A stretch of DNA of 64,000 bases, from positions 62,001-126,000 of the forward strand of contig CALSSW010000002.1 of NCBI GenBank assembly GCA_943789105.1, given 5' to 3'. Each line of letters starts with the position of its first letter. Within the stretch, counting starts at the first letter, position 1. A program made the translations under genes and the position numbers. Positions 42,539 through 59,174 of the stretch are shown in pieces. This stretch comes from an uncultured Ulvibacter sp. Its GTDB lineage: Bacteria; Bacteroidota; Bacteroidia; Flavobacteriales; Flavobacteriaceae. The notes beneath the pieces are model-generated. The model worked only from the letters and a program-made list of their open reading frames with translations. It was not told the origin of the DNA and ran no database searches.

Positions 42539-43174
42539 ATGTTTTTAGAAAATACCGTAAATCAAAAAGAGCAATTTGGCTGGATCGAAGTCATTAGTGG
42601 TTCTATGTTTTCTGGTAAAACCGAAGAACTTATTAGGCGCTTAAAGCGCGCGCAATTTGCGCGTCAAAAAGTAGAAATTTTTAAGCCTGCCTTAGACACC
42701 CGCTTTGATGACGACCAGGTGGTGTCTCATGACAAAAACCACATACGGTCTACAGCAGTTCCCGCCGCTGCAAATATTCCTATTTTGGCAGATAACTGTG
42801 ATGTTGTGGGTATAGATGAGACGCAATTCTTTGATGATGAAATTGTAAAGGTCTGTAACGATTTGGCAAACCGCGGGGTTCGCGTTATTGTGGCTGGTTT
42901 AGACATGGATTTTAAAGGCAATCCTTTTGGGCCTATGCCTGCCCTAATGGCCACAGCAGAGTATGTGACAAAAGTGCATGCGGTGTGTCCTCGAACAGGA
43001 AATTTGGCAAACTATAGTTTTAGAAAATCTCAAAGTAATGATTTAGTACTCCTTGGAGAAACAGAAGAATATGAGCCGCTAAGCCGTGCTGCTTTTTACA
43101 AGGCAAGGTTAAAAGAAAAACTACGTACTCTTGATGTACAAGAGCCAGAAGAGGTTACTCCCAAAAACAAATAA
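42539..43174 (+). CDS. tdk: Thymidine kinase
   Basis: 211-residue type II thymidine kinase. The phosphate-binding loop is SGSMFSGKTEELIRRLKRA, and the Walker B/catalytic region is GIDETQFFDDEIV. The C-terminal lasso with NLANYSFRKS and YEPLSRAAFYKARL aligns with the thymidine-binding loop. Only one cysteine (HAVCPRT) remains where most relatives have four zinc ligands, which I recall as usual in Bacteroidetes. The enzyme salvages thymidine to dTMP. It is followed 14 bases later by alr, so the two are probably one operon. Confidence 0.93.
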   Translation: MFLENTVNQKEQFGWIEVISGSMFSGKTEELIRRLKRAQFARQKVEIFKPALDTRFDDDQVVSHDKNHIRSTAVPAAANIPILADNCDVVGIDETQFFDDEIVKVCNDLANRGVRVIVAGLDMDFKGNPFGPMPALMATAEYVTKVHAVCPRTGNLANYSFRKSQSNDLVLLGETEEYEPLSRAAFYKARLKEKLRTLDVQEPEEVTPKNK

Positions 43175-43188
43175 GCGCACCTATAAAA

Positions 43189-44298
43189 ATGCCAAAAGCA
43201 ACACAAACTATTTTAGAGATTAACCTTACTGCTTTGGGTCATAACTATCGCTATATTCAATCACAACTTAAACAACCCAGCCGCATTATGGCTGTTGTAA
43301 AAGCCTTTGGATATGGCTCTCAAGACCTTGCAATTGCCAAGGAGCTGGAAAAGTTAGGAGTTGGATATTTTGCGGTTGCATATGCTCAAGAAGGGGCTCG
43401 CCTTAGAGAGGGCGGCATCCAAACGCCTATTTTAGTGCTACACCCACAAGCCGTTAATTTTGATATTATTCTTGACAAATGCTTAGAGCCCTGTATGTAC
43501 AGCTCAAAAATACTTGAAGAGTTTATTAATTTTTCCCAAAAGAAAAAACAAAAACAGTATCCTGTACACCTAAAGTTTAACACCGGACTCAATAGGCTAG
43601 GCTTTGCTAAAAGCGATCTTACGTATATTATAGACTCCCTCACAAATTCAAGCGCAGTTAAAGCCTGTTCTGTTTTTTCGCACCTTGTAGCTAGTGAAGA
43701 TTTGCAACAAGAAGAATTTACCCTGAAACAGTTGGGTGCGTTTGCTGAAATTTCAGAGGAACTAAAAAAGGCACTGCCCAACACCCCTTTTTTACACACC
43801 TTAAACACCTCTGGAGTTTTAAATTACCCGCAAGCCCACTATGATATGGTACGTTGTGGTATTGGGCTCTATGGCTTTGCCAATGATATAGAGCAATCTG
43901 CAAAGCTAAAGCCTGTCGCGACACTTAAAACTATTATCTCTCAAATTCATAGCCTTGAAAAAGGAGATAGCCTTGGTTACAACAGAGCGTTTATTGCTCA
44001 AAAAAAGATGAAAACCGCTACCCTTCCTCTTGGCCATGCAGATGGTATTTCAAGAGCCTACGGAAATGGCATGGGATGGGTGCGGATTAACGGCCACAAA
44101 GCCCCAATCTGTGGAAATGTCTGCATGGACATGATCATGGTAGATATAACCGGTATTGACTGTAAAGAAGGGGATGAAGTGATTGTATTTGGAGAACAAA
44201 CAACTGCAGAAAAACTCTCGGAGGCTGTTGATACAATATCCTATGAAATTCTTACGGCAATCTCTCAGCGTGTGACGCGAGTTATCACAAGATCATAA
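43189..44298 (+). CDS. alr: Alanine racemase
   Basis: 369-residue PLP enzyme that turns L-alanine into D-alanine for peptidoglycan. The PLP lysine is in MAVVKAFGYGS, and the second catalytic base tyrosine is expected in the C-terminal GDSLGYNRAFIA region. CGIGLYGF, GHADGI and GNVCMDMIMVD are typical. Standard length. It is 14 bases downstream of tdk and shortly upstream of asd, which has its own box. Confidence 0.95.
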   Translation: MPKATQTILEINLTALGHNYRYIQSQLKQPSRIMAVVKAFGYGSQDLAIAKELEKLGVGYFAVAYAQEGARLREGGIQTPILVLHPQAVNFDIILDKCLEPCMYSSKILEEFINFSQKKKQKQYPVHLKFNTGLNRLGFAKSDLTYIIDSLTNSSAVKACSVFSHLVASEDLQQEEFTLKQLGAFAEISEELKKALPNTPFLHTLNTSGVLNYPQAHYDMVRCGIGLYGFANDIEQSAKLKPVATLKTIISQIHSLEKGDSLGYNRAFIAQKKMKTATLPLGHADGISRAYGNGMGWVRINGHKAPICGNVCMDMIMVDITGIDCKEGDEVIVFGEQTTAEKLSEAVDTISYEILTAISQRVTRVITRS

Positions 44299-44376
44299 GG
44301 TGTTTTAAGCTGCGTTTTTTTATTTAAAGACCATAAAAATTTTAAACAATAGTGTACCTTTAAAAAAAATAATCCT

Positions 44377-45366
44377 ATGAAAATAGCCGTTATAGGTGCC
44401 ACGGGCATGGTTGGTTCGGTGATACTTACACTTCTTGAAGAGCGTAACTTTCCTGTCACAGAACTGCTACTTGTAGCCTCAAAAAAATCTGTAGGCAAAC
44501 AGCTCTTTTTTAAGAACAAAGCACTTAAAATAATAGCTATTGAAGAGGCCATAAAGGCCAAGCCTGTCATTGCTATATTCTCTGCAGGAGGTGAAACTTC
44601 CTTGGACTGGGCTCCTAAATTTACCCATGTTGGCACTACCGTTATAGACAATTCCTCTGTTTGGCGGATGGATCCAAACAAAAAATTAATTGTTCCAGAA
44701 ATCAATGCTCAAACGCTCACCAAAGAAGATAAAATTATAGCCAACCCAAATTGCTCTACCATACAGCTGGTTATGGCCTTAGCTCCATTGCACAAAAAAT
44801 ACAAAATCAAACGGGTGGTGCTCTCTACCTACCAATCTGTTTCTGGAACAGGAGCAAAGGCTGTAAAACAAATGGAGGGTGAAGAAAAAAATACAGACTC
44901 TGAAATGGCCTATCCATATCAAATTCATAGAAATGTAATCCCACATTGTGACGTCTTTCAAGACAACGGGTACACAAAAGAAGAAATGAAATTGGCCCTA
45001 GAGCCTCAAAAAATATTAAATGACCAAAGTTTTTCCATCACAGCCACAGCCGTTAGGGTGCCCACCTCTGGAGGCCATAGTGAGGCTGTAAATGTTGCCT
45101 TTGACATTGATTTCACCCTAGATCAGGTGCGTACTATCATTAAGCAAACACCTGGGGTTACGCTTCAAGACAACCCAGAGACGAACACCTATCCAATGCC
45201 TCTTTTGGCACACAATAAAGATGAGGTTTTTGTTGGAAGGCTCCGTAGGGATTTTTCACAACAAAACACCCTAAATATGTGGATTGTAAGTGATAATTTA
45301 AGAAAAGGAGCCGCTACAAACGCTATTCAAATTGCAGAATATTTGGTTGACAAGGAGCTCCTCTAA
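44377..45366 (+). CDS. asd: Aspartate-semialdehyde dehydrogenase
   Basis: 329 residues; second step of the aspartate pathway, giving aspartate semialdehyde for lysine, threonine, methionine and diaminopimelate. NADP-binding motif GATGMVGSVI at the N-terminus, catalytic cysteine in ANPNCSTIQLV, and VSTYQSVSGTG-type loop (LSTYQSVSGTGAKA) follow; the catalytic histidine is in TSGGHSEAVNV. A TACCTTTA box about 15 bases before the ATG is a likely -7 element. Confidence 0.95.
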   Translation: MKIAVIGATGMVGSVILTLLEERNFPVTELLLVASKKSVGKQLFFKNKALKIIAIEEAIKAKPVIAIFSAGGETSLDWAPKFTHVGTTVIDNSSVWRMDPNKKLIVPEINAQTLTKEDKIIANPNCSTIQLVMALAPLHKKYKIKRVVLSTYQSVSGTGAKAVKQMEGEEKNTDSEMAYPYQIHRNVIPHCDVFQDNGYTKEEMKLALEPQKILNDQSFSITATAVRVPTSGGHSEAVNVAFDIDFTLDQVRTIIKQTPGVTLQDNPETNTYPMPLLAHNKDEVFVGRLRRDFSQQNTLNMWIVSDNLRKGAATNAIQIAEYLVDKELL

Positions 45367-45547
45367 GGCAAATAAAGTGTCTGTGTATTCATTACATTTT
45401 CAGAAAACAATAGGGTAAAAAAAGTATTAAACTTCTAATAATTGTCTCATCCCTTGATGGATAAACAAATATAACTCATTAGATTGCTTATAAAATTGAA
45501 TATAAAGTCCTATTTTTAGGCTTTTTTAGATTAAATAATTTTAAGAA

Positions 45548-46939
45548 ATGCCAAGAATTTTATGTCTGTTATTTGCAATGCTACTTGTCACCTCGTGTGG
45601 GTCAGATGATGATACAGATGTTTTTGTTCCTCTAGAGATACAAACACAAGAAGATTTTGTGCAAGTATCGACACTGCAAATAATTAGCATTGCTATTTTC
45701 GCTAACGATACAAATATTCCGTCATCTGGAATACTCTCGGTAACATCTCCCAGCAATGGTGATGTGATAATAAACAACAATAACACCCCACAAGACACCA
45801 GCGATGATATTTTAGAATATGACCCAGCACTAAACTTTGTGGGTACAGACACCCTGCAGTATACCATTTGCCTTCAAGACGGAAGCAATTGCAAAACAGA
45901 AACTGTTTCTATTATTGTTTTTCAAGACACAACCGTGACGCTGGATTTAGATAAGTTTCCTTACGATACCCTTTCTGAGTACAACTTTTTTAACGGTGCG
46001 CTAAATGCAATACAGCCTGCATACGGAGTGCTTCCTTACCAGCCCATAAGTTCATTATTTACAGATTATGCGGTTAAAGAAAGATTTGTTTGGGTGCCTG
46101 TAGGAGAAACAGCAAGCTTTGACCAAAACAATAAATCGTTAAATTTCCCCGTAGGGAGTGCGCTTGTAAAAATGTTTTACTACAACAATGTACTACCAAC
46201 AAATACAACCAGAATTATTGAAACCAGAGTAATGGTAAAAACTCAAGATGGCTGGGACTTTGCTGAATATGTATGGAATGATGCTCAAACAGAAGCTTTT
46301 TTAGAAACCACAGAAGATGGTGGATACACAGAAGTAAACTGGTTGCAAGATGGACAGCAAAAGTTTGTTAACTACAGAATTCCAGCAAAACAACAGTGCG
46401 TTATCTGCCACACCAATGATTTTGAAACCGTGCCCCTTGGTATAAAGCCTCAAAACATCAATTCTTTTTTAACCTATGACGATGGCCCAAGCAATCAATT
46501 ACAAAAACTAATTAATTTTGGTTACCTTGAAGACGCCCTTCCTGAAAATATCACAACAGTGGTAGACTGGACAGACACCTCAAACTCCTTAGAGCAAAGA
46601 GCAAAGTCTTACCTTGATATAAATTGTGCTAATTGTCACATTGATGGAGGACAAGGAGATTACAGAGGAATCCGCCTTGGATATACAGATATGTTAAACA
46701 ACGATGAAAATGTAGGGGTTTGTGTTGACGGCGACACTCCAATACCTGTCGGTGGGGGGACGTTTATTACTAAGCTTATAGCGCCTGAAGATTCAGAAAA
46801 CTCAATAATATACTATAGGATGTCTGTCACGGGAGACGAGGCCTATAAAATGCCCCAGTTTGGGCAAAGTCTAGTTCATACAGAGGCCCTAGTGCTTATG
46901 GAAGACTGGATAAATTCTATTAACCAATCTTGTGATTAA
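45548..46939 (+). CDS. Diheme c-type cytochrome lipoprotein (SO2930-like) with Ig-like N-terminal domain
   Basis: 463 residues with a lipoprotein signal (lipobox VTSC, Cys 17). Residues ~30-125 form an Ig/cadherin-like repeat (FANDTNIPSSG, VGTDTLQYTICL). The rest, starting near LDLDKFPYDTLSEYNFF, matches the SO2930/HNE_0200-type diheme family. Heme-binding motifs are CVICH at 284-288 and CANCH at 360-364. It is probably anchored in the envelope and could carry electrons. A paralogue lies two genes downstream with the same 76-residue spacing of heme motifs, and a T9SS-exported FG-GAP protein lies 14 bases downstream. Confidence 0.87.
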   Translation: MPRILCLLFAMLLVTSCGSDDDTDVFVPLEIQTQEDFVQVSTLQIISIAIFANDTNIPSSGILSVTSPSNGDVIINNNNTPQDTSDDILEYDPALNFVGTDTLQYTICLQDGSNCKTETVSIIVFQDTTVTLDLDKFPYDTLSEYNFFNGALNAIQPAYGVLPYQPISSLFTDYAVKERFVWVPVGETASFDQNNKSLNFPVGSALVKMFYYNNVLPTNTTRIIETRVMVKTQDGWDFAEYVWNDAQTEAFLETTEDGGYTEVNWLQDGQQKFVNYRIPAKQQCVICHTNDFETVPLGIKPQNINSFLTYDDGPSNQLQKLINFGYLEDALPENITTVVDWTDTSNSLEQRAKSYLDINCANCHIDGGQGDYRGIRLGYTDMLNNDENVGVCVDGDTPIPVGGGTFITKLIAPEDSENSIIYYRMSVTGDEAYKMPQFGQSLVHTEALVLMEDWINSINQSCD

Positions 46940-46953
46940 TTAAACCAATTATT

Positions 46954-48564
46954 ATGAAAAAATTATTCTTTTTTACCTGTCTTTTTGCTGTAGCTCAATA
47001 CAGTGTAGCTCAAGTAACTTTTACGCCTCAATCTGCCGGCACAAATTACACCGATAGAGGATTTGTAGACATGAATGGAGACGGTCTGGATGACATCCTT
47101 TCTGTTTCAAATACTAATATTCAAGTTTTGTATCAACAACAAGATGGGTCTTTTATAGAGTCAACGGTTGCCACAGAATTTGCTGACAATTCTCCATCTT
47201 GGAGTTTGGCAGCTGCAGATTATGACCGCAACGGCTACACAGACTTGCTATATGGTGGGGGTAGTGGTGTTACCTTTATGAGGGCAAACAATGATGGGAC
47301 AGCGTATACTGAAATATCTGGTCCTGAATATGTGTTCTCACAACGCTCTAACTTTGTAGACATTAACAACGATGGGCATCTAGACGCCTATGTGTGTCAT
47401 GATGTTGAGCCAAGTGTTTTTTATATCAATGACGGACAAGGAAACCTAGAATACTTTCAAGGCGGTTTGGGAGATTACCCGTCTGGCGGACATTATGGGT
47501 CTGTGTGGCTAGATTTTGACAATGATAGAGATGTAGATATGTTTATTGCAAAATGTGGTGGAGAGTCAGAAAGAAGAGACAACGAAATGCATGTAAACAA
47601 TGGAGACGGAACTTTTACAGAAAGTGGCGCCTCTTTAAATCTAGAGGATGATATGCAAACCTGGTCTAGCGCTTGGGCAGACTATGACAATGATGGAGAT
47701 CTAGACGGATGGATTGGAGCAAGTACTTTTAGCAATGGATTCCATAGGCTAATGAGAAATAACGGTAATGGAACTTTTACAGATGTAATTGATGCATCTG
47801 GACTTACAGGATTTAACGTTACAAGTATTGAAAATCAAACCTATGATTTTGACAATGACGGGAATGCTGATATTGTATCTGGCGGGGTTATTTTGTACGG
47901 TAATGGAGATCTAACTTTTACCATCTCTAGTACAAATATTGGTAATGGTGGCTTTGGAGACATCAACGAAGATGGATTTGTGGATGCTATTTCTAACGGA
48001 CAACTTATTATAAACAACACCAACAACAATAACTGGCTGAAAATAAACACCGTTGGTGTAGAAAGTAATGTTGGAGGTATTGGAGCAAGAGTTGAACTAA
48101 CATCACCTTCTGGAACTCAAATTAGAGAAGTAAGAAGTGGTGAAGGATTCAGAAACATGAGTACATTAAACACGCATTTTGGTCTTGGTCAAGACACAGA
48201 GGCAACATCTGTAACAATTTACTGGCCTTCTGGAATTGTAGATATTTATGAAGATCTAGATATTAACATGACCCATAAACTTGTTGAGGGGAATAGTGTT
48301 TTAAACACTGGTGATTTCTTAACAAGCGACCTTTCTGTATTCCCTGTTCCAGCCCTTGACAACCTAACGGTGTCAAATATTCAGGATATTGAAGACCCTA
48401 TTTATACTGTTTTTGATATTACGGGAAGAAAAGTAATGCATGGAAGGCTCCTCAACAAAAACATTGATGTATCTCAATTAACTTCTGGGCAGTACATTCT
48501 TCGTATAGCAGGACAAAGGTTTAGAAGAAACAATGTGAAAGCAACCAAGTTCACAAAAAGATAA
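46954..48564 (+). CDS. T9SS-exported FG-GAP/VCBS-repeat protein with UnbV/ASPIC domain
   Basis: 536 residues with signal peptide ending near YSVAQ. About seven FG-GAP/VCBS-like repeats carry calcium-binding DxDxDG loops: DMNGDGLDD, DYDRNGYTD, DINNDGHLD, DYDNDGDLD, DFDNDGNAD and DINEDGFVD. An ASPIC/UnbV domain (GIGARVELTSPSG, HFGLGQDTEATSVTIYWPSG) follows from about residue 360. The last ~75 residues (VFPVPALDNLTVSN, TSGQYILRI) are a T9SS type A sorting domain. Expected to be surface-exposed or secreted, with a beta-propeller fold. It sits between two paralogous diheme cytochromes; a strong terminator follows it. Confidence 0.9.
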   Translation: MKKLFFFTCLFAVAQYSVAQVTFTPQSAGTNYTDRGFVDMNGDGLDDILSVSNTNIQVLYQQQDGSFIESTVATEFADNSPSWSLAAADYDRNGYTDLLYGGGSGVTFMRANNDGTAYTEISGPEYVFSQRSNFVDINNDGHLDAYVCHDVEPSVFYINDGQGNLEYFQGGLGDYPSGGHYGSVWLDFDNDRDVDMFIAKCGGESERRDNEMHVNNGDGTFTESGASLNLEDDMQTWSSAWADYDNDGDLDGWIGASTFSNGFHRLMRNNGNGTFTDVIDASGLTGFNVTSIENQTYDFDNDGNADIVSGGVILYGNGDLTFTISSTNIGNGGFGDINEDGFVDAISNGQLIINNTNNNNWLKINTVGVESNVGGIGARVELTSPSGTQIREVRSGEGFRNMSTLNTHFGLGQDTEATSVTIYWPSGIVDIYEDLDINMTHKLVEGNSVLNTGDFLTSDLSVFPVPALDNLTVSNIQDIEDPIYTVFDITGRKVMHGRLLNKNIDVSQLTSGQYILRIAGQRFRRNNVKATKFTKR

Positions 48565-48575
48565 TTTTTTAATTC

Positions 48576-48614
48576 TAAAAAACACCATTGAGTGAATTCT
48601 CAATGGTGTTTTTA
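48576..48614 (+). terminator. Terminator after the FG-GAP/UnbV gene
   Basis: AAAAAACACCATTGAG, six-base loop, CTCAATGGTGTTTTTAT: perfect 13-base stem with T tract. It falls between the FG-GAP gene and the second cytochrome, so read-through or a separate promoter is needed for the latter. Confidence 0.88.
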
Positions 48615-48622
48615 TTTACACT

Positions 48623-49717
48623 ATGTTAAAACACGTTCTTTATATAGCTCTAAGTTTTTTTTTATGTGCTAGCTGCTCTAATGAGGATGACGCAGGTTAT
48701 ATTACCGTTGAGCCTATCTCTGTGGTTACTTTAGATTTACTGCAAGTACCCTACCCAACACTCTCTGAGTATCGTTTCTTTGAAGAAACACTAAGTGAGC
48801 TTACACCCACATTTGGGGTGCTTCCCTATGAGCCTATTAGTTCATTATTTTCAAACTATGCGCACAAATCGCGCTTTGTGTGGCTTCCTAGCGGTACAAT
48901 TGGGACCTATAATGGAGACGCTAATAATATTGAGCTACCTGTTGGTAGTGTGCTTATTAAAAACTTCTTCTATGACAATGTACTTCCTGATAATACTAGA
49001 GTACTTATTGAAACCAGGCTCATGATTAGAAAAGAAGAAGGTTGGACTTTTGCAGAATATTTTTGGAATGATCAGCAAACAGAAGCTTTTCTCGATACAC
49101 AGGGGGATGGTGGCTTTAAATATGTTTCTTGGATAGAAGCGGGAGAGCAGCGTGAAATAAACTACAGAATGCCTTCTGGAAGTGAGTGTTTTACTTGTCA
49201 TAAAAGCAATACAACAAATGAGCCTATTGGTATAAAGCCTCAAAGTCTTAATAGTACTTATGCCTTTGCAGATGGCCTGCAAAATCAACTACAAAAGTGG
49301 GTTGAGGTTGGATATCTCGAAGATAATATTCCCACAAACATCAATACCGTTGTAGACTACACAGATACCTCACAAGACCTTGAGACCAGAGTTCGCTCTT
49401 ATGTAGATATTAATTGTGCCAGCTGTCATAGAGATGAGGGGCATTGTAATTACAGGCCTATGAGGTTTGCCTTTAGCGAAAACAACTTATTGGAAAATTT
49501 AGGGGTTTGTGTAACTCCAGATCAAATGCTAAGCAATCTCTCCTTAGATCAAAAATTAATTAAACCTGGAGATCCAGAAAACTCTGTAATATACTACCGC
49601 CTGAATGTAACGGCAGAAGAAGAACGCATGCCGCTTCTTGGTAGAAGTATTATCCACAATGACGGAGTAGACTTGCTAAGAGATTGGATAAACTCTCTGG
49701 ATACTTCCTGTGACTAA
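48623..49717 (+). CDS. Diheme c-type cytochrome lipoprotein (SO2930-like), second copy
   Basis: 364 residues with a lipoprotein signal (FFLCASC, Cys 18). It lacks the Ig-like domain of its upstream paralogue and starts the conserved part soon after the signal (LDLLQVPYPTLSEYRFF). Heme motifs are CFTCH at 189-193 and CASCH at 265-269, with the same 76-residue spacing as in the first copy. Shared segments such as FAEY.WNDQQTEAFLDT and PEDSENSIIYYR-like ends (PGDPENSVIYYR) show recent-type paralogy, though many positions differ. A second envelope electron carrier is likely. A strong terminator follows. Confidence 0.87.
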   Translation: MLKHVLYIALSFFLCASCSNEDDAGYITVEPISVVTLDLLQVPYPTLSEYRFFEETLSELTPTFGVLPYEPISSLFSNYAHKSRFVWLPSGTIGTYNGDANNIELPVGSVLIKNFFYDNVLPDNTRVLIETRLMIRKEEGWTFAEYFWNDQQTEAFLDTQGDGGFKYVSWIEAGEQREINYRMPSGSECFTCHKSNTTNEPIGIKPQSLNSTYAFADGLQNQLQKWVEVGYLEDNIPTNINTVVDYTDTSQDLETRVRSYVDINCASCHRDEGHCNYRPMRFAFSENNLLENLGVCVTPDQMLSNLSLDQKLIKPGDPENSVIYYRLNVTAEEERMPLLGRSIIHNDGVDLLRDWINSLDTSCD

Positions 49718-49733
49718 GGCTTTTAAAATAGCA

Positions 49734-49780
49734 TAAATACCCCATTTGCAACTACTTGCAAATGGGGTATTTATTTTTTG
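49734..49780 (+). terminator. Terminator after the second diheme cytochrome gene
   Basis: AAATACCCCATTTGCA, five-base loop, TTGCAAATGGGGTATTT then ATTTTTTG: perfect long stem with T tract. Confidence 0.9.
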
Positions 49781-49819
49781 TTATCTTTAAGTAACAATAA
49801 CGCTAAACAAATCGCCATT

Positions 49820-50194
49820 ATGAATTCAACTTTTACAACTATTTTACGCATGTTACTGGGTGTTTCTTTGCTAATATTTGGCATGAATAAATTTTTTCCG
49901 TTCATCCCTATTTTTGATATGGCTCCAGCAGCAGCAAACTTTATGGAATCTTTAAATAGCACAGGATATGTTTTATATGTTGTTGCTTGTCTGGAGCTAC
50001 TTATCGGGGGGCTACTACTGTTTAAAAAATGGGTTCCCTTTGCACTTGTTTTGCTAGCTCCTATTGTTGTTAATATTTTATTGTTCCATCTTTTTTTAGA
50101 CGTCTCAGGCATGTTAGTTGCTATTTTTATGTTGGCAATTACCGGGGTACTCATATATAAATACTGGAAATCTTACAGTTCTTTGTTTCAATAA
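49820..50194 (+). CDS. DoxX-like small membrane protein
   Basis: 124 residues from the ATG at 49820 (MNSTFTTILRMLLGVS); the ORF-track start 42 bases earlier lies past the upstream terminator but reads into non-family sequence. Four hydrophobic helices: LLGVSLLIFGMNKFFPF, VLYVVACLELLIGGLLLF, FALVLLAPIVVNILLF and LVAIFMLAITGVLIYKY. The pattern with NKFFPF and LELLIGG fits DoxX/DoxD-like membrane proteins, whose role is uncertain (redox or quinone-linked). Stands alone with a terminator after it. Confidence 0.8.
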   Translation: MNSTFTTILRMLLGVSLLIFGMNKFFPFIPIFDMAPAAANFMESLNSTGYVLYVVACLELLIGGLLLFKKWVPFALVLLAPIVVNILLFHLFLDVSGMLVAIFMLAITGVLIYKYWKSYSSLFQ

Positions 50195-50220
50195 CAACCA
50201 TAAAACACTTTTTTAAACAC

Positions 50221-50259
50221 AAACAGGCCGCCAATACTTTTATTGGGGCTTGTTTTTTT
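50221..50259 (+). terminator. Terminator after the DoxX-like gene
   Basis: AACAGGCCGCCAAT and ATTGGGGCTTGTT can pair with two bulges and are followed by TTTTTTT. It lies directly before the prolyl oligopeptidase gene. Confidence 0.65.
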
Positions 50260-50284
50260 ATGTATTTTTATAAAAAATAACCTC

Positions 50285-52453
50285 ATGAAAAAGTTAATGC
50301 TTCCAATTTTTACAGCCCTAGTTCTTGTAGGGTGTAACAACAGTACTATTTCAAAAAACCAACCCAATATCGTGACCTATCCTAACACCAAAAAAGTTGA
50401 CACTGTTACTAATTATTTTGGAACACAGGTGAAAGACCCTTACAGGTGGCTTGAAGACGATATGAGCGAGGAAACTGCTGGGTGGGTGGAAGATCAAAAC
50501 AAAACAACCTTTGAGTATTTAGAAAACATCCCTTTCAGAGAGGAGCTAAAAGAGCGCCTTACCACGCTTTGGAATTATGAAAAAGTAGGGGCTCCTTTTA
50601 AAGAAGGAGACTACTCTTACTTTTATAAAAATGATGGGCTGCAAAACCAGTATGTAATTTACAGATACAAAACAGGGCAAGGCCCCGATAAGGCCGAAGT
50701 TTTTTTGGACCCTAACACATTCGCTGAAGATGGAACCATTTCTCTAGGTGGGCTTAGTTTTAGCGACAACGGATCGTTGGCCGCCTACAGTATAAGCGAG
50801 GGAGGAAGTGACTGGAGAAAAGTGCTTGTAATGAATGCCCAAAGCAAAGAAATTATAGAAGACACCATTGTGGATGTAAAATTTAGCGGTATTTCTTGGC
50901 TGAAAAATGAAGGGTTTTATTATTCCAGCTATGATAAACCAAAAGGAAGTGAGCTTTCCGCTAAAACAGACCAGCACAAACTTTATTATCATAAACTTGG
51001 GGCTTCTCAAAAAGAAGATCAGCTTATTTTTGGAGGCACCCCAGAACAAAAGCATAGATATGTTGGGGGTCGAACCACACAAGACAATAAATATTTAATT
51101 GTTTCTGCTAGTGTTTCAACCTCAGGAAATAAACTCTTTATCAAAGACCTCAGTGACCCCAAAAGCCGTTTTATTGCTGTACAAAAAGACACAGATAGTG
51201 ACACCTCTGTTATAGATAATGTTGGCAGCAAGCTTTATCTTGTAACAAATAGAAATGCTCCAAACAAAAAAGTGGTTACTGTAGATGCCACTAGTCCAGG
51301 TCCAGAAAACTGGGAAGATCTTATTGAGGAAACTCAAAATGTTTTAAGAGCTAGCACAGGTGGTGGGTATATTTTTGCAAATTATATGGAAGATGCTGTG
51401 AGCGTTATAAAACAGTATGCCTATGACGGAACCAAAGTAAGAGAAGTTGCCTTACCTGGAGTTGGCTCTGTGGGTGGTTTTGGCGCCAAAAAGCAAGAAA
51501 CAAGTCTGTATTATTCTTTTACAAATTACCTCACCCCTGGCAGTATCTATTCTTATGAAATTTCTTCTGGGGTTTCTGAGTTATACAAAAAACCAAACAT
51601 TGATTTTAACTCAGATAATTACCAAAGCAAGCAGATATTCTACACCTCAAAAGACGGCACGAAGGTGCCAATGATAATTACACATAAAAAAGGAATCGTA
51701 TTAGACGGTACAAATCCTACCATTTTATATGGCTATGGTGGTTTTAATATTAGCTTGACTCCAAGTTTCAGTATAACAAATGCCGTATGGATGGAGCAAG
51801 GCGGTGTGTATGCTGTCGCCAACCTTAGAGGTGGTGGAGAGTATGGTAAAAAATGGCATGATGCAGGAACAAAATTACAAAAGCAAAATGTTTTTGATGA
51901 CTTTATAGGCGCCGCAGAATATTTGATTGCTGAAAAATATACCTCTAGTGATTACCTTGCCATTCGTGGCGGATCTAACGGAGGACTTTTAGTGGGCGCT
52001 ACGATGACACAGCGGCCAGATTTAATAAAAGTAGCCCTTCCGGCGGTTGGGGTTTTAGATATGTTGCGCTACCACACCTTTACAGCTGGTGCTGGTTGGG
52101 CCTATGATTATGGTACGGCGCAACAAAGTAAAGAAATGTTTGAATACCTAAAGGCATACTCCCCGGTACATAATGTAACCCTTGGCACAAAGTATCCCGC
52201 AACAATGGTGACCACAGGAGATCATGATGATAGGGTGGTGCCTGCACATAGTTTTAAATTTGCAGCACAATTGCAAGAAAAACAAGGGGGCCCTGCTCCT
52301 GTTTTGATTAGAATTGAAACAGATGCAGGCCATGGTGCAGGAACTCCTGTGAGTAAAACCATAGCGCAATATGCGGACATCTATGGTTTTACTTTATATA
52401 ATATGGGCTATAAGGTATTGCCAAAAAACATTAATGACGGGGTAAAACAATAA
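50285..52453 (+). CDS. Prolyl oligopeptidase family serine peptidase (S9A), lipoprotein
   Basis: 722 residues from the ATG at 50285 ([10 protein letters not shown]), which gives a normal lipoprotein signal with VGC box; the upstream start does not. The N-terminal part ([18 protein letters not shown]) and a central seven-bladed propeller precede the alpha/beta-hydrolase domain. The catalytic triad is S564 in GGSNGG, an aspartate in GDHDDRVVP (about D648) and H683 in DAGHGAG. It cleaves short peptides after proline. The lipoprotein anchor suggests the periplasmic side. Normal length for the family. Confidence 0.93.
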
Positions 52454-53490: not shown

Positions 53491-54069
53491 TTAAAGCAGA
53501 TCCCACACAATTTTTAATGCAAAAACTATTAGTAGTATTGAGCATGCTATGATAATATGATCGTGTTTTAGTTTTTTAAAACAACGTAATACTATCTGTA
53601 TAGCGGCCAAAAACACACCCACAATTAAAAGTTGACCTATCTCAATTCCTATATTAAAGCCCAAGAGAGATGCTAATAAATTATCACCTTCAAAAAAGGC
53701 CATTTTTAGAAAATTTGAAAATGCCAAACCATGAATACAGCCAAAGACTAAGACCATAATGTATAATAGTTGGTAATTAACTTGAGTGGGCTTATACACT
53801 TTAAATAAATTATTTATACACGTTATAATAATTGTAATGGGTATCAACTGCTCTATAATATCGCGCTGCAAGTTAAGGACATCATAGACAGAAAGCACTA
53901 GAGTAATACTGTGCCCTAGGGTGAAGGCCGTTATAAGCAGCGCTAGTTTTTTCCAATGAGAAAGACTAAAAAAAACCGTAATAGCTAGTATAAAAAGCAG
54001 GTGGTCAATGCCGTCTATGTCTAAAATATGTGATAGTCCTTGTTTAAAAAAAAGTACAAATGCCTGCAT
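53491..54069 (-). CDS. HupE/UreJ-like membrane protein
   Basis: 192 residues with about six or seven hydrophobic helices. The N-terminal segment FKQGLSHILDIDGIDHLLFILA carries the HupE/UreJ motif with conserved G, H and D (GIDHLLF), and a later segment is HSITLVLS in the second helix and FGCIHGLAFSNFL in the fourth. These proteins are proposed nickel or metal transporters. No urease or hydrogenase genes are nearby, so the role here is unclear. It starts on the last base of the upstream GreA/B-like gene (TAATG overlap), showing translational coupling. Confidence 0.85.
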   Translation of the reverse strand: MQAFVLFFKQGLSHILDIDGIDHLLFILAITVFFSLSHWKKLALLITAFTLGHSITLVLSVYDVLNLQRDIIEQLIPITIIITCINNLFKVYKPTQVNYQLLYIMVLVFGCIHGLAFSNFLKMAFFEGDNLLASLLGFNIGIEIGQLLIVGVFLAAIQIVLRCFKKLKHDHIIIACSILLIVFALKIVWDLL

Positions 54070-54527
54070 TACTCAATCGTTTTAATTGTATAGGTGGTCT
54101 TTCTAAAACAAAAGGTGTCCCCCTCTTTTTTTCCAAAAAGCAATTTACCAATTGGTGTTTGTAGGCCAATACAATAGTAAAGCGTTTTTTGGTGGGTCAC
54201 AACACCCAGGGAGATACTTAAAAAAAACAGGCCATTATTGGTAGTCACCAAACTTCCTAGATGAGCATGAGTTGCTGTTTTTGTAAGATTAATTTTATGA
54301 AGGGTTTCAAGGGTTTTCTCAATTTCTACCAACCGCTCACCAGCTTGCTCTCTGTCTAGTTGCAACATTGCTCTTGTGGTCTGGTGCTTATCTCCAGCGC
54401 TGCTTTTTGTGTCATCATCTAAAGACGCAACAATACTCTTAATTTTATCTTGAACAATGCTATACTTCTGCATTATTTGCTGTTCACAAGATAGCAGTAA
54501 GTGTTCTTTGATTTTTTTTGAGCTCAT
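54069..54527 (-). CDS. GreA/GreB-like coiled-coil and FKBP-like protein
   Basis: 152 residues. The N-terminal ~90 residues are charged and helical, with SSAGDKHQTTRAMLQLDREQ, a segment of the Bacteroidetes Gre-like family. The C-terminal domain (VVTHQKTLYYCIGLQTPIGKLLFGKK) resembles the FKBP-like domain of GreA, with SPIGKALLGKK-type motif in the Gre family. It could act at the RNA polymerase secondary channel, but the two acidic residues at the coiled-coil tip of real GreA are not certain here. Similar proteins are sometimes misnamed 3-oxoacyl-ACP synthase. Coupled with the HupE-like gene. Confidence 0.7.
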   Translation of the reverse strand: MSSKKIKEHLLLSCEQQIMQKYSIVQDKIKSIVASLDDDTKSSAGDKHQTTRAMLQLDREQAGERLVEIEKTLETLHKINLTKTATHAHLGSLVTTNNGLFFLSISLGVVTHQKTLYYCIGLQTPIGKLLFGKKEGDTFCFRKTTYTIKTIE

Positions 54528-55676: not shown

Positions 55677-55742
55677 AAATAGTATTATATTTAAGCCTAT
55701 TTGCTTGAAGCAATTTGCTTTTATAAATTTAATTACATTCTG

Positions 55743-58700
55743 ATGAAAACCAACTACAGATTATTACTTGTTTTTATTTTATTCTCTTTTTTGTCATTTT
55801 CTCAACAGCCCGGAGATGAAATCGAAATACAAACCATAGAATTTGATGGATATCCTGTTGGAGAGGGCTGGCTTGCCCCAAGAGAGGGATATTTTGATTT
55901 TACCTCCTTGGAAGGACTTGACTTTGAAAAAGTATATATTAAATATAAACTAAAGTGTGACCCAACTCAAAATCCAAATTGTGGAGAATGGGACTACCTC
56001 TCCTACCTAAAAGTTATTGAACATACCGGCAAAGGGCTTCATCCCAGCTACTATATTGGTGGAAGCGGTGGGTTAACACCAGATACATTTTCTTACATGA
56101 ACAATACCGCTTGGAGCTACTCCCCAAGGTATGAACAAACCATCGTTTTTGATGACCCTTCTGCCCTTGATGACTACCAGGTGGGTGATGGAACACAAGA
56201 GGTTCAAGATCCTTTTAACGCCTCTTTGGAAGACTCTCAGGTGCAGTATTTATTTAGGCAGTCTGAGCTGGTGGCCTCTGGATTAACTCCGGGAGAGATT
56301 ACAGGAATGCAATTTAATATTCTTGATACTGGCGGAGAAATGCAGCACCTTAGAATTGGTCTAAAGACTACCACACAAAACGAATTACAAGAAAATGAGA
56401 TAATTACAGATTTTGTTGAGGTGTTTGCTAAAGATTTGGCCTTTAGTGATACAGGCTGGCAGCATATTGATTTTTCTTCATTTTTTAATTGGGATGGGGT
56501 TTCAAATATATTAGTTGAGGTTGCCTTTACAGGAAAAGAAGGGGCAAGTGCGGTTTCTTTAAGTGGAAGTGACTACTCCTGGGGTTGTGCATCACAGGCG
56601 GCAACTACAGACGCTTATTTTAATTTTAATGGGCCAGATAAACTAGAGGTTCCTACCACAAACCTAACAGAGATAGAAAATGAGATTACGATTTCTTTTT
56701 GGCTTAACGGAAATGGAGAGCAGCCCCAAAACGACAGTGTTTTTGATGTCCATGACCAAGACGGAAACAGAGTTTTAAACATACATCTCCCTTGGAGCAA
56801 CCAAAGAGTATATTGGGATGCAGGAGATGCAACAGGGTATGACCGTATAGACAAACAGGTTGATGATATTGATCAGTACAAAAATGTTTGGAATCATTGG
56901 GCCTTCACTAAAAATGCAACTACTGGTGTGATGAACATATACCTCAACGCAGAGCTTTGGCATACCGGAACAGGGCTTAATAGGGCCATAGGGACTATCG
57001 CTGATTTTAATCTTGGCAGAGGGCAGTGGAATGCAGATAATTTTTATGATGGCAAACTGGATGATTTCCAGATTTGGTCTACAGAGCTAGACCCTGCAAC
57101 TATTGTCAACTGGATGCACAAGGATATTGACGCAACTCATCCTAACTATTCAGCATTAGAAGTAAATTACAAGTTTAATCAAGTCACTACAAATTATGAG
57201 ACTCTTGAGGGGGTCTTAGCCCAGCAAACACCGCTTTATGGAATTCCTCAATTAAAAAGTTATAATGGCAAGCATTTTAAAAACTTTACCCCCTCTACAA
57301 CAAGACCCAACGTAAAATTTAATCGCAATACTTCTACCTATACTGTAAATACAGCGCTTGTTATAGACTCCATAGCCAAAGGAAAAGTAATGGTAGAAAA
57401 ATACGTGCAAGAAGTGGCTGGAGAAATTCCTGTTTTGGATGAAACTCTTTATGTAAACCCAACCTATTATAACAATTACCAGTATGATGCCAATTTGGTT
57501 GCCACAGACTCTACGGCTGTAGCTGCAGATAATACTCTTATATTAGAACAAATTGAGTATAACACCACAGTCCCTGGAGAAGAGGTCCTTGTGCCTTGGG
57601 AGATTGGCCGTTATATAACGCCCTACGGAAATGGCCTCTCATTGGGCGATGATGGCTGGACATGGATTTTTGATGTTACAGATTTTCAGCACCTTTTTCA
57701 AGGAGATGATGTACATATTCAGGCCGGTAACTTTCAAGAACTACTTGATATGAAGGTTGTCTTTAAAGTGGGCACCCCACCTAGAGAACTCCTGGGCATT
57801 CATAGTTTGTATTCTGGTAATTATAGTTTAAACACCTTCGATGATGTGGTTATTAACACCACAGTGCCTCTCAACCCAGAAGCAGAGATGTTTTCTGTAA
57901 AATCAACCCTAACAGGACATGATTTTGGATCTGGTAATAATTGTGGTGAGTTTTGTAACAATACCCATAAAGTACTTGTAAATGGTGTCGAGCAATATAG
58001 CTGGCAAATTATGCAAGAATGTGGAGAAAACCCACTCTACCCTCAAGGTGGAACTTGGATGTACGATAGGGCTGGTTGGTGTCCAGGAGCTCCAGCAACG
58101 GTGCAAAACCTGGATGTTACTCCGTTTATTAATGTTGGTGTAGACACCACAACAGACATAGATTACAACATAGATCAAGACCCTTATGGAAACTATGTTA
58201 CAGAAATCTTTTTTGTAGAATATGGCGCTCCAAATTTTAGTAATGACGCGGCTTTAGAAGAAATTATTGCTCCTAATATTTTTAAACTCAATACCAGGTT
58301 CAACCCAACCTGTGGCGAGCCTGTTATTAGAATAAAAAACAATGGAGAAAACCCATTAGAGTCTGTAACGGTGACCTATGGGGTTCAAGGAGAGGCGCCT
58401 TACAGCTATACTTGGACAGGAAATTTAGCGTTTTTAGAACAACAGATAATCACGCTTCCTGCCATTGAAGTTGGTAGTTACTACCAAGGAGCTACCTCTT
58501 TTGAGGTAAGTCTTGGCGAGCCTAATGGCAGCTCAGATCAATACGAGTTTAATAACAGTCTTACCTCAGAGTTTGAGCCCGCTCCAATTCATGAGGAACA
58601 AATGGTAATCGACTTTAAGACAAATAATCGTCCTTTTGAAAACAGCTACAAGGTGTTTGACACAGCCGGAAACGTTATGTTTGAAAGAGATTTTGATGAC

Positions 58701-59174
58701 TCAAACACAACACATACAGATCTAATTAATCTTCCACAGGGATGCTATGAGCTAGTGGTATATGATACTGGTGGTGACGGAATGAATAACTGGCCCTCAA
58801 ACCATGGTAACGGATTCATTCGTTTAAAAAACTTGAGCGGCTCTACGATCGTTTATCTTGAGCGTTGGTTTGGGGAGACTATAAAGTATCGCTTTAGAAA
58901 CGATGCTGCCCTAAGCTCTGAAGGCCAGCAAAGTAGTTTGTTTTCTGTTCATCCAAACCCTACAGACAATGCTTTTACGGTATCGCTTTTAAACTCGGGG
59001 GAGTCTTTCTCTATGGAAATTTTTAACATCACAGGCATGACAATCTATAAAGAGAAAGACATGGACCCTTCAAACAACACCGTGGATGTCTCTAGCTATA
59101 GTAGTGGCGTGTATTTAATTTACTTAAAAACCCAAAGTGGCGCTACACAGGTTAGGAAACTAATTGTTAATTAA
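55743..59174 (+). CDS. Large PNGase F-like T9SS protein with LamG-type insertion
   Basis: 1143 residues from the ATG at 55743 (MKTNYRLLLVFILFS), with signal peptide to about FSQQ. From memory of PNGase F, two parts align: residues ~72-90 (CGEWDYLSYL, D84 at the catalytic Asp) and ~620-800 (GRYITPYGNG; NCGEFC with E736; DRAGWCPGAP). Between these lies a ~500-residue insertion with a LamG/concanavalin-like domain near residues 295-480 (ISFWLNGNGEQ). The last ~75 residues are a T9SS sorting domain (SVHPNPTDNAF). It likely removes N-glycans from proteins outside the cell, but the third catalytic Glu of PNGase F is not evident at the expected AGNFQELLD position. Confidence 0.85.
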   Translation: MKTNYRLLLVFILFSFLSFSQQPGDEIEIQTIEFDGYPVGEGWLAPREGYFDFTSLEGLDFEKVYIKYKLKCDPTQNPNCGEWDYLSYLKVIEHTGKGLHPSYYIGGSGGLTPDTFSYMNNTAWSYSPRYEQTIVFDDPSALDDYQVGDGTQEVQDPFNASLEDSQVQYLFRQSELVASGLTPGEITGMQFNILDTGGEMQHLRIGLKTTTQNELQENEIITDFVEVFAKDLAFSDTGWQHIDFSSFFNWDGVSNILVEVAFTGKEGASAVSLSGSDYSWGCASQAATTDAYFNFNGPDKLEVPTTNLTEIENEITISFWLNGNGEQPQNDSVFDVHDQDGNRVLNIHLPWSNQRVYWDAGDATGYDRIDKQVDDIDQYKNVWNHWAFTKNATTGVMNIYLNAELWHTGTGLNRAIGTIADFNLGRGQWNADNFYDGKLDDFQIWSTELDPATIVNWMHKDIDATHPNYSALEVNYKFNQVTTNYETLEGVLAQQTPLYGIPQLKSYNGKHFKNFTPSTTRPNVKFNRNTSTYTVNTALVIDSIAKGKVMVEKYVQEVAGEIPVLDETLYVNPTYYNNYQYDANLVATDSTAVAADNTLILEQIEYNTTVPGEEVLVPWEIGRYITPYGNGLSLGDDGWTWIFDVTDFQHLFQGDDVHIQAGNFQELLDMKVVFKVGTPPRELLGIHSLYSGNYSLNTFDDVVINTTVPLNPEAEMFSVKSTLTGHDFGSGNNCGEFCNNTHKVLVNGVEQYSWQIMQECGENPLYPQGGTWMYDRAGWCPGAPATVQNLDVTPFINVGVDTTTDIDYNIDQDPYGNYVTEIFFVEYGAPNFSNDAALEEIIAPNIFKLNTRFNPTCGEPVIRIKNNGENPLESVTVTYGVQGEAPYSYTWTGNLAFLEQQIITLPAIEVGSYYQGATSFEVSLGEPNGSSDQYEFNNSLTSEFEPAPIHEEQMVIDFKTNNRPFENSYKVFDTAGNVMFERDFDDSNTTHTDLINLPQGCYELVVYDTGGDGMNNWPSNHGNGFIRLKNLSGSTIVYLERWFGETIKYRFRNDAALSSEGQQSSLFSVHPNPTDNAFTVSLLNSGESFSMEIFNITGMTIYKEKDMDPSNNTVDVSSYSSGVYLIYLKTQSGATQVRKLIVN

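Follow-up and report, generated by a model that had tools for sequence, protein, structure and literature searches.

Introduction

Cytochromes of the SO2930 family (NCBIfam TIGR03806) have two CxxCH heme motifs and mostly a beta-helix protein of the TIGR03805 type as neighbour; they are widespread, yet we found no known function for them. In cytochromes P460 and c'-beta, the position of the heme cross-link is held by Lys70 in N. europaea P460 and by Phe61 in the Thermus cytochrome c'-beta (TtCP-beta) (PMC11928373). Here we analyse a locus that can be compared with both groups. It lies in a 64,000-nucleotide stretch of DNA (hereafter the window) from an uncultured Ulvibacter sp. of the Flavobacteriaceae (GenBank assembly GCA_943789105.1, contig CALSSW010000002.1, positions 62,001 to 126,000, forward strand), where three open reading frames (ORFs) on the same strand, A, B and C, together occupy 45548-49717. 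A and C encode diheme lipoproteins resembling SO2930, and B, between them, encodes a beta-propeller protein with a sorting domain of the type IX secretion system (T9SS).

We propose, at about even odds in our own judgement, that the pair of cytochrome and propeller is a surface redox module of Flavobacteriales in which the propeller docks the cytochrome, the first heme serves to bind or convert a small molecule, and the second acts as an electron relay.

A conserved pair of cytochrome and propeller genes

The conserved unit is a two-gene pair, cytochrome followed by propeller, that is tightly linked in many marine and freshwater flavobacteria. When 80 genome loci from Flavobacteriaceae, Weeksellaceae, Crocinitomicaceae and other groups were fetched with a cytochrome profile, a homologue of B was the next gene on the same strand after 83 of their 90 cytochromes, with a median gap of 25.5 bp (14 bp between A and B), and the seven unpaired cytochromes were three second copies and four from loci with a cut or broken B frame. 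As these loci were selected by similarity to C, an independent sample of 396 Bacteroidota genomes, drawn evenly, was used in addition. All 15 strong matches to B (E < 1e-200) in this sample were directly downstream of an SO2930-like cytochrome that scores below the family cut-off, whereas none of the 21 cytochromes above the cut-off had a strong B match beside it, and a TIGR03805-type beta-helix gene was found directly upstream of 17 of these 21. The order of beta-helix gene and SO2930 cytochrome gene is annotated on a Novosphingobium plasmid as well. Taken together, the beta-helix neighbours of the canonical cytochromes and the propeller pairs indicate that the SO2930 family has two partner types. 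We found no description of a TIGR03806/UnbV pairing in Bacteroidota in the literature searched, which left most subscription journals uncovered.

The two genes could be neighbours by chance or through synteny with asd and the prolyl oligopeptidase/ABC genes, as the pair lies within the same asd...ABC interval in many Flavobacteriaceae. However, the pair also occurs where the surrounding genes are unrelated (Flavobacterium, Fluviicola, Moheibacter, Kordia), its two genes lying tens of bp apart, and it is found in the 396-genome sample. The survey refutes this explanation, whose probability we put at next to nothing.

An earlier note on this DNA, made by a model from the letters alone, had described two SO2930-like diheme lipoproteins with a 76-residue heme spacing around an FG-GAP/UnbV/T9SS protein, and had mentioned the beta-helix neighbour of SO2930 cytochromes; ORFs, motifs and profiles agree with the description, and the beta-helix loci confirm the neighbour. 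The note had doubted its cassette should the genes never occur together in relatives, and the neighbourhood survey found cytochrome and propeller kept together. Its three-gene unit did not hold up, being a two-gene pair to which one lineage has added a duplicated cytochrome, set off by a terminator hairpin. Twin flanking cytochromes are not the defining feature, for there is a single cytochrome in 70 of the 80 loci. Nor is the heme spacing special to A and C, since it is 76 in 54 of 94 relatives and 75-86 in the others.

A and C are 48-51% identical and match TIGR03806 over their full length with 273.5 bits (E 2.1e-81) and 279.8 bits (E 2.6e-83), under the curated cut-off of 313.3 bits, so that "SO2930-like" describes them correctly and full membership does not. 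Both carry the two heme motifs of the family, at residues 284 and 360 in A and 189 and 265 in C (spacing 76 in both), and the beta-helix neighbour of the family is absent at the window locus, where the UnbV/T9SS propeller is found instead. No solved structure convincingly related to the cytochrome was found by sequence search. In the tree, the UnbV-paired cytochromes form one clade (100/99) and the beta-helix-paired ones another (100/94), with a third SO2930 clade (100/99), carrying extra N-terminal domains, set apart. In the third-clade loci L043-L047 the ORFs are 343-493 aa long with neither an UnbV nor a beta-helix gene adjoining, and they retain the Lys, the ETR and both heme motifs of the family.

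The first heme domain

The first hint of a cytochrome P460-type domain came from the sequence PVGSVLIKNFFY ... ETRLMIRK..GWTFAEY ... CFTCH in C. Cytochromes c'-beta appeared at ranks 2, 11 and 30 in a Foldseek search with the AlphaFold2 model of C (mean pLDDT, the model's own confidence measure, 84.9), and the Pfam model Cytochrome_P460 matched 10 of 14 family members, at best with 1.4e-4. Using hhalign, a profile of the cytochromes was compared with a profile of Bacteroidota P460-family proteins, and the heme-1 domain matched at a probability of 94% (E 1.2e-7), or at 56% (score 31.6) with the heme motifs removed. Among 40 column-shuffled controls the highest probability was 6.9% (score 22.3), and reversed and unrelated profiles stayed under 1%. 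With single subsets of the P460 set the probability was lower, 34-90%, and the link is therefore good but remote. On this profile evidence the heme-1 domain is best regarded as a cryptic, divergent cytochrome P460/c'-beta domain.

The pocket predicted around heme 1 is built of invariant residues, namely Lys82, Arg84, Lys113, Glu130 and Arg132. Lys113 is Lys in 120 of 120 relatives, is present also in the third clade and in fusions with a glucose/sorbosone dehydrogenase (GSDH) propeller, and aligns with the P460 cross-link position in every alignment. No invariant distal Met or His for heme 1 was seen in the family alignment, whereas heme 2 lies in a PSCyt1/cytochrome c-like (class I) domain with an invariant Met336. 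That the first heme appears to sit in a P460-like pocket points to a surface enzyme with redox activity more than to a simple wire, and heme 1 is likely to be a small-molecule heme site.

The plain wire, the idea of the earlier note, is nevertheless an explanation to be considered, in which both hemes would only pass electrons from an oxidising surface propeller to the cell. In two other Bacteroidota genomes a GSDH propeller, an SO2930-type diheme module and a T9SS tail are fused in a single chain (L195:2775-5402 in G310 and L196:2667-7649 in G281), which provides independent evidence that modules of this type work with secreted-side propellers. These fusions with propellers of pyrroloquinoline quinone (PQQ) dehydrogenases resemble dehydrogenase-to-cytochrome electron transfer, as a wire would require, and heme 2 is a typical Met-ligated relay. 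However, the heme-1 domain is P460/c'-beta-like and has no invariant distal ligand, B has no GSDH domain and the operon has no trans-outer-membrane conduit, so we regard the wire as unlikely, although worth keeping in mind. The electron link between cytochrome and propeller, which the earlier note had suggested, is favoured by the same fusions, which also count in favour of the surface redox module.

Export signals and the propeller protein

Published lipoprotein export signals (LES) read SDDFE in Flavobacterium johnsoniae and SDDDD in Bacteroides fragilis (PMC5080379). The acidic motif after the lipid-attachment Cys, CGSDDD in A and CSNEDD in C, resembles them, having a polar residue and then an acidic run as expected of a candidate LES. 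At least two acidic residues at +3 to +6 were found in 81 of 87 cytochromes (a few of which are of other, non-UnbV types) versus 15 of the 49 further ORFs of lipoprotein type at these loci, and the motif is mostly absent from cytochromes of the beta-helix type. On the partner side, a T9SS tail is present in 96 of 101 homologues of B and in none of 20 beta-helix partners, and the genome carries three PorP-family T9SS genes and one ResB-type gene. A Cys296/Cys363 pair occurs in 96 of 96 UnbV-type cytochromes and is mostly absent from the other type. As the acidic motif, the Cys pair and the T9SS partners are largely features of the UnbV type, partner and predicted compartment appear to have changed together. 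A surface location of the cytochrome is thus favoured by two independent predicted export signals, its own LES-like motif and the T9SS tail of the propeller, in line with the outer-surface unit that the earlier note had envisaged.

The cytochrome might instead face the periplasm, as canonical SO2930 lipoproteins may, with only the propeller outside and the two proteins co-expressed and never in contact. The LES is a prediction from sequence, and Shewanella SO_2930 and SO_2931 are placed in a localisation table as outer-membrane/extracellular, with the side not stated (PMC4837345). The enrichment of the acidic motif over background, its absence from most beta-helix-paired relatives, the added Cys pair and the switch to a T9SS cargo as partner all speak against a periplasmic cytochrome, which seems to us quite improbable compared with the surface module.

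B contains five FG-GAP_3 repeats (4.6e-36) followed by an UnbV_ASPIC domain (1.5e-17) and a T9SS type A sorting domain that is above cut-off in both profiles (TIGR04183, 27.2 bits, cut-off 23; PF18962, 33.7, cut-off 27). A signal peptide can be seen by eye, which together with the sorting domain identifies B as a type A cargo of T9SS. The AlphaFold2 model (pLDDT 86) consists of the propeller and the UnbV domain. Its top Foldseek match was murine CRTAC1 (9etn, E 1.1e-22), followed by fungal lectins, and CRTAC1 was the sole significant match of a phmmer search against PDB sequences (7.8e-10); with its propeller preceding UnbV/ASPIC, B is a CRTAC1-like FG-GAP/UnbV protein. A domain search gave no match to GSDH (PF07995) in B.

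This resemblance to fungal lectins and CRTAC1 would also suit a sensor or scavenger, in which heme 1 at the surface binds nitric oxide (NO), carbon monoxide or peroxide while the propeller, acting like a lectin, tethers the cytochrome to glycans or an algal host, with no metabolic electron flow. Cytochromes c'-beta are among the structural relatives of the heme-1 domain, and NO roles have been proposed for them (PMC11928373). Nevertheless, cytochromes c'-beta have mostly hydrophobic residues where the SO2930-like family has the invariant Lys, and heme 2 would be superfluous in such a role, making a sensor improbable in our view.

A few loci show further variation in the propeller gene. In L137:7154-8648 (G010), a near relative, the B gene has in-frame stops and a frameshift and both cytochromes are intact, reflecting either decay or an assembly error, and in L097, L110, L127 and L055 several tandem UnbV propellers stand behind one or two cytochromes.

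Proposed role of the pair

In the proposed surface redox module, the acidic export signal would flip the product of the first gene, the diheme lipoprotein, to the outer surface. Its P460/c'-beta-like N-terminal domain would place heme 1 in a pocket that is open and polar and takes up ligands, where a small molecule may be bound or converted, and heme 2, ligated by Met336 in the class I (PSCyt1-like) C-terminal domain, would relay electrons. The product of the second gene, a CRTAC1-like and putatively Ca-binding propeller, would be secreted by T9SS, attached at the surface and docked with the cytochrome, and could bind, present or position the substrate. In the window's genus the cytochrome has been duplicated, with the second copy behind a hairpin. 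The computations establish the gene content, the conserved pairing, the split into clades, the remote P460-type homology, the invariant residues and the fusions with dehydrogenase propellers, whereas we infer that the cytochrome is at the surface, that it forms a complex with the propeller, that heme 1 is catalytic and that electrons pass to heme 2.

Several observations weigh against such a role. The P460 link is one of remote homology: Foldseek gave no match of C below E 0.001, with c'-beta weak at E 0.09, and the Pfam P460 match of C itself is far under the gathering score (E 3.6). Where P460 has its catalytic carboxylate (the distal Glu/Asp proton acceptor), the cytochromes align the invariant Arg132, with the invariant Glu130 two residues before it, and hence hydroxylamine oxidase chemistry is not predicted and membership among the hydroxylamine-oxidising enzymes is not claimed. 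No catalytic or PQQ site is recognisable in B, and the pair contains no gene for electron transfer across the outer membrane. The LES consensus comes from other genera and may not be that of the window's genus. Finally, paralogues of B with FG-GAP, UnbV and T9SS domains and no cytochrome form a separate clade in the window's genus (L130:7435-9051, L131:7572-9209, L132:7153-8772 and L129:1681-3303).

A broader idea, which we offer tentatively as possible rather than probable, is that all SO2930 cytochromes belong to the P460 superfamily, as a branch overlooked so far in which a P460-type heme domain, possibly with a Lys cross-linked heme, is fused to its own cytochrome c relay. One Flavobacteriales clade would then have been moved outside through a surface export signal and the swap of the beta-helix partner for a T9SS CRTAC1-like propeller, resulting in a surface-displayed P460-like redox enzyme. 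Placing heme 1 in the P460/c'-beta superfamily gives SO2930-type cytochromes a concrete, testable active-site prediction, the split into beta-helix and propeller clades is a natural experiment on moving a redox module to the cell surface in Bacteroidota, and the fusions with PQQ-dehydrogenase propellers hint that the cytochromes serve as electron partners.

Duplication of the cytochrome

The second cytochrome is a genus-level, lineage-specific duplicate behind a terminator-like hairpin. In the window's GTDB genus, whose members include Patiriisocius marinistellae (G008, L064), A and C fall into separate clades, each together with G005, G007 and small-genome metagenome-assembled genomes (MAGs), and the duplication therefore dates back at least to the ancestor that they share. 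Separate duplications were found as tandem copies in Flavobacterium, as double pairs in L071 and L099, and in Moheibacter. Between B and C, the hairpin folds in the window region (L017) and in 8 of 8 relatives, including the independent Moheibacter case (-14.7 to -21.6 kcal/mol), which suggests that expression of C depends on read-through or on a start of its own, and that its level is probably lower or set separately.

According to the earlier note, an Ig-like domain in the first cytochrome only might let the two copies act at different distances from the membrane. In the window this is the distribution, as the domain search found Big_9 at residues 35-122 of A (1.1e-7) and none in C. A constant difference between the copies was rejected, because both are long (at least 421 aa) in the genus mates G005 and G007 and a short C copy is limited to the clade of small-genome MAGs, where the Ig domain was most simply lost. 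As a whole, the interpretation in that note retains its conserved, surface-type cassette, parts with the three-gene unit and the role of the Ig domain, and had missed the likeness of heme 1 to P460/c'-beta.

Features of the locus

The coordinates of the annotated elements are collected in Table 1. No Rfam element was matched within window 43000-52000. Behind the cassette, at 49817-50191, is a gene for a small membrane protein of the DoxX family, which in several relatives (L034, L035, L038) is also found in front of the cassette. A large T9SS type A protein (1157 aa) is encoded nearby at 55701-59174, and at 53491-54527 a HupE/UreJ-like membrane protein is located beside a protein whose C-terminus weakly matches GreA/GreB and which is a common neighbour of the cassette in relatives.

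Table 1. Elements of the cytochrome-propeller locus, in window positions.
Feature	Position	Strand	Basis
Gene A, diheme SO2930-like c-type cytochrome lipoprotein with N-terminal Ig-like domain, 463 aa	45548..46939	+	ORF; TIGR03806 2.1e-81 (sub-cut-off); Big_9 1.1e-7
A, lipid-attachment Cys17 and acidic LES-like surface export motif CGSDDD	45596..45613	+	sequence, motif statistics, F. johnsoniae LES consensus SDDFE (PMC5080379)
A, Big_9 Ig-like domain, residues 35-122	45650..45913	+	domain match
A, Lys208 codon, counterpart of C Lys113 (P460 cross-link position)	46169..46171	+	alignments
A, heme-1 motif CVICH, residues 284-288	46397..46411	+	motif scan
A, heme-2 motif CANCH, residues 360-364	46625..46639	+	motif scan
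Gene B, FG-GAP beta-propeller, UnbV/ASPIC and T9SS type A sorting domain, 536 aa, CRTAC1-like fold	46954..48564	+	domains, AlphaFold2, Foldseek, phmmer
B, UnbV_ASPIC domain, residues 375-440	48076..48273	+	domain match
B, T9SS type A C-terminal sorting domain	48337..48561	+	profile matches
Terminator-like hairpin with U-run between B and C, conserved, 9 nt 5' of the C ATG	48578..48613	+	folding of window region and relatives
Gene C, second diheme SO2930-like cytochrome lipoprotein, without Ig domain, 364 aa	48623..49717	+	TIGR03806 2.6e-83 (sub-cut-off); AlphaFold2 pLDDT 84.9
C, lipid-attachment Cys18 and acidic LES-like motif CSNEDD	48674..48691	+	sequence, motif statistics
C, Lys113 codon, invariant, aligned with P460 cross-linking Lys position	48959..48961	+	alignments
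C, heme-1 motif CFTCH, residues 189-193, end of P460/c'-beta-like domain	49187..49201	+	motif scan, profiles
C, heme-2 motif CASCH, residues 265-269, class I/PSCyt1-like domain with invariant Met336	49415..49429	+	motif scan, profiles
Near-perfect 19-bp bidirectional terminator-like hairpin 3' of C, closing the cassette	49733..49774	.	folding

Comparison with known systems

MtrC and OmcA are outer-membrane c-type cytochrome lipoproteins, as A and C are predicted to be, but they have ten hemes instead of two, and the operon of A and C has no porin or periplasmic decaheme partner; no Mtr-type conduit of porin and multiheme partner was found among the operon neighbours in the window and the relatives' loci. 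B shares with CRTAC1 and other FG-GAP/UnbV proteins the propeller, the UnbV/ASPIC domain and Ca-type DxDxDG loops, and differs from CRTAC1 in its T9SS sorting tail and its place in a bacterial operon with a cytochrome. The GSDH fusions (PQQ glucose/sorbosone dehydrogenase, PF07995) likewise combine a propeller, an SO2930-type module and T9SS export, whereas here the chains are separate and the propeller is of another family, B lacking GSDH homology.

With cytochromes P460 and c'-beta (PF16694), the heme-1 domain has in common a beta fold ending in CxxCH, the PxGxxxxK motif, whose Lys occupies the cross-link position, and the GWxxxxY motif. The differences are the Arg in place of Glu/Asp, the fused second heme domain and the lipoprotein nature, and the similarity is remote. 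Among the close systems is also the SO2930 family, with which A and C share full-length homology, two CxxCH motifs, an operon with one partner and the invariant Lys82, Arg84, Lys113, Glu130-Thr-Arg and Met336. Unlike the canonical members, cytochromes of the A/C type score below the family cut-off, form a clade of their own, carry the extra Cys pair and the LES-like motif, and have a T9SS propeller downstream rather than a beta-helix protein upstream. While the single parts are of known kinds, the switch of partner and predicted compartment within the SO2930 family and the cryptic P460-type heme domain are new.

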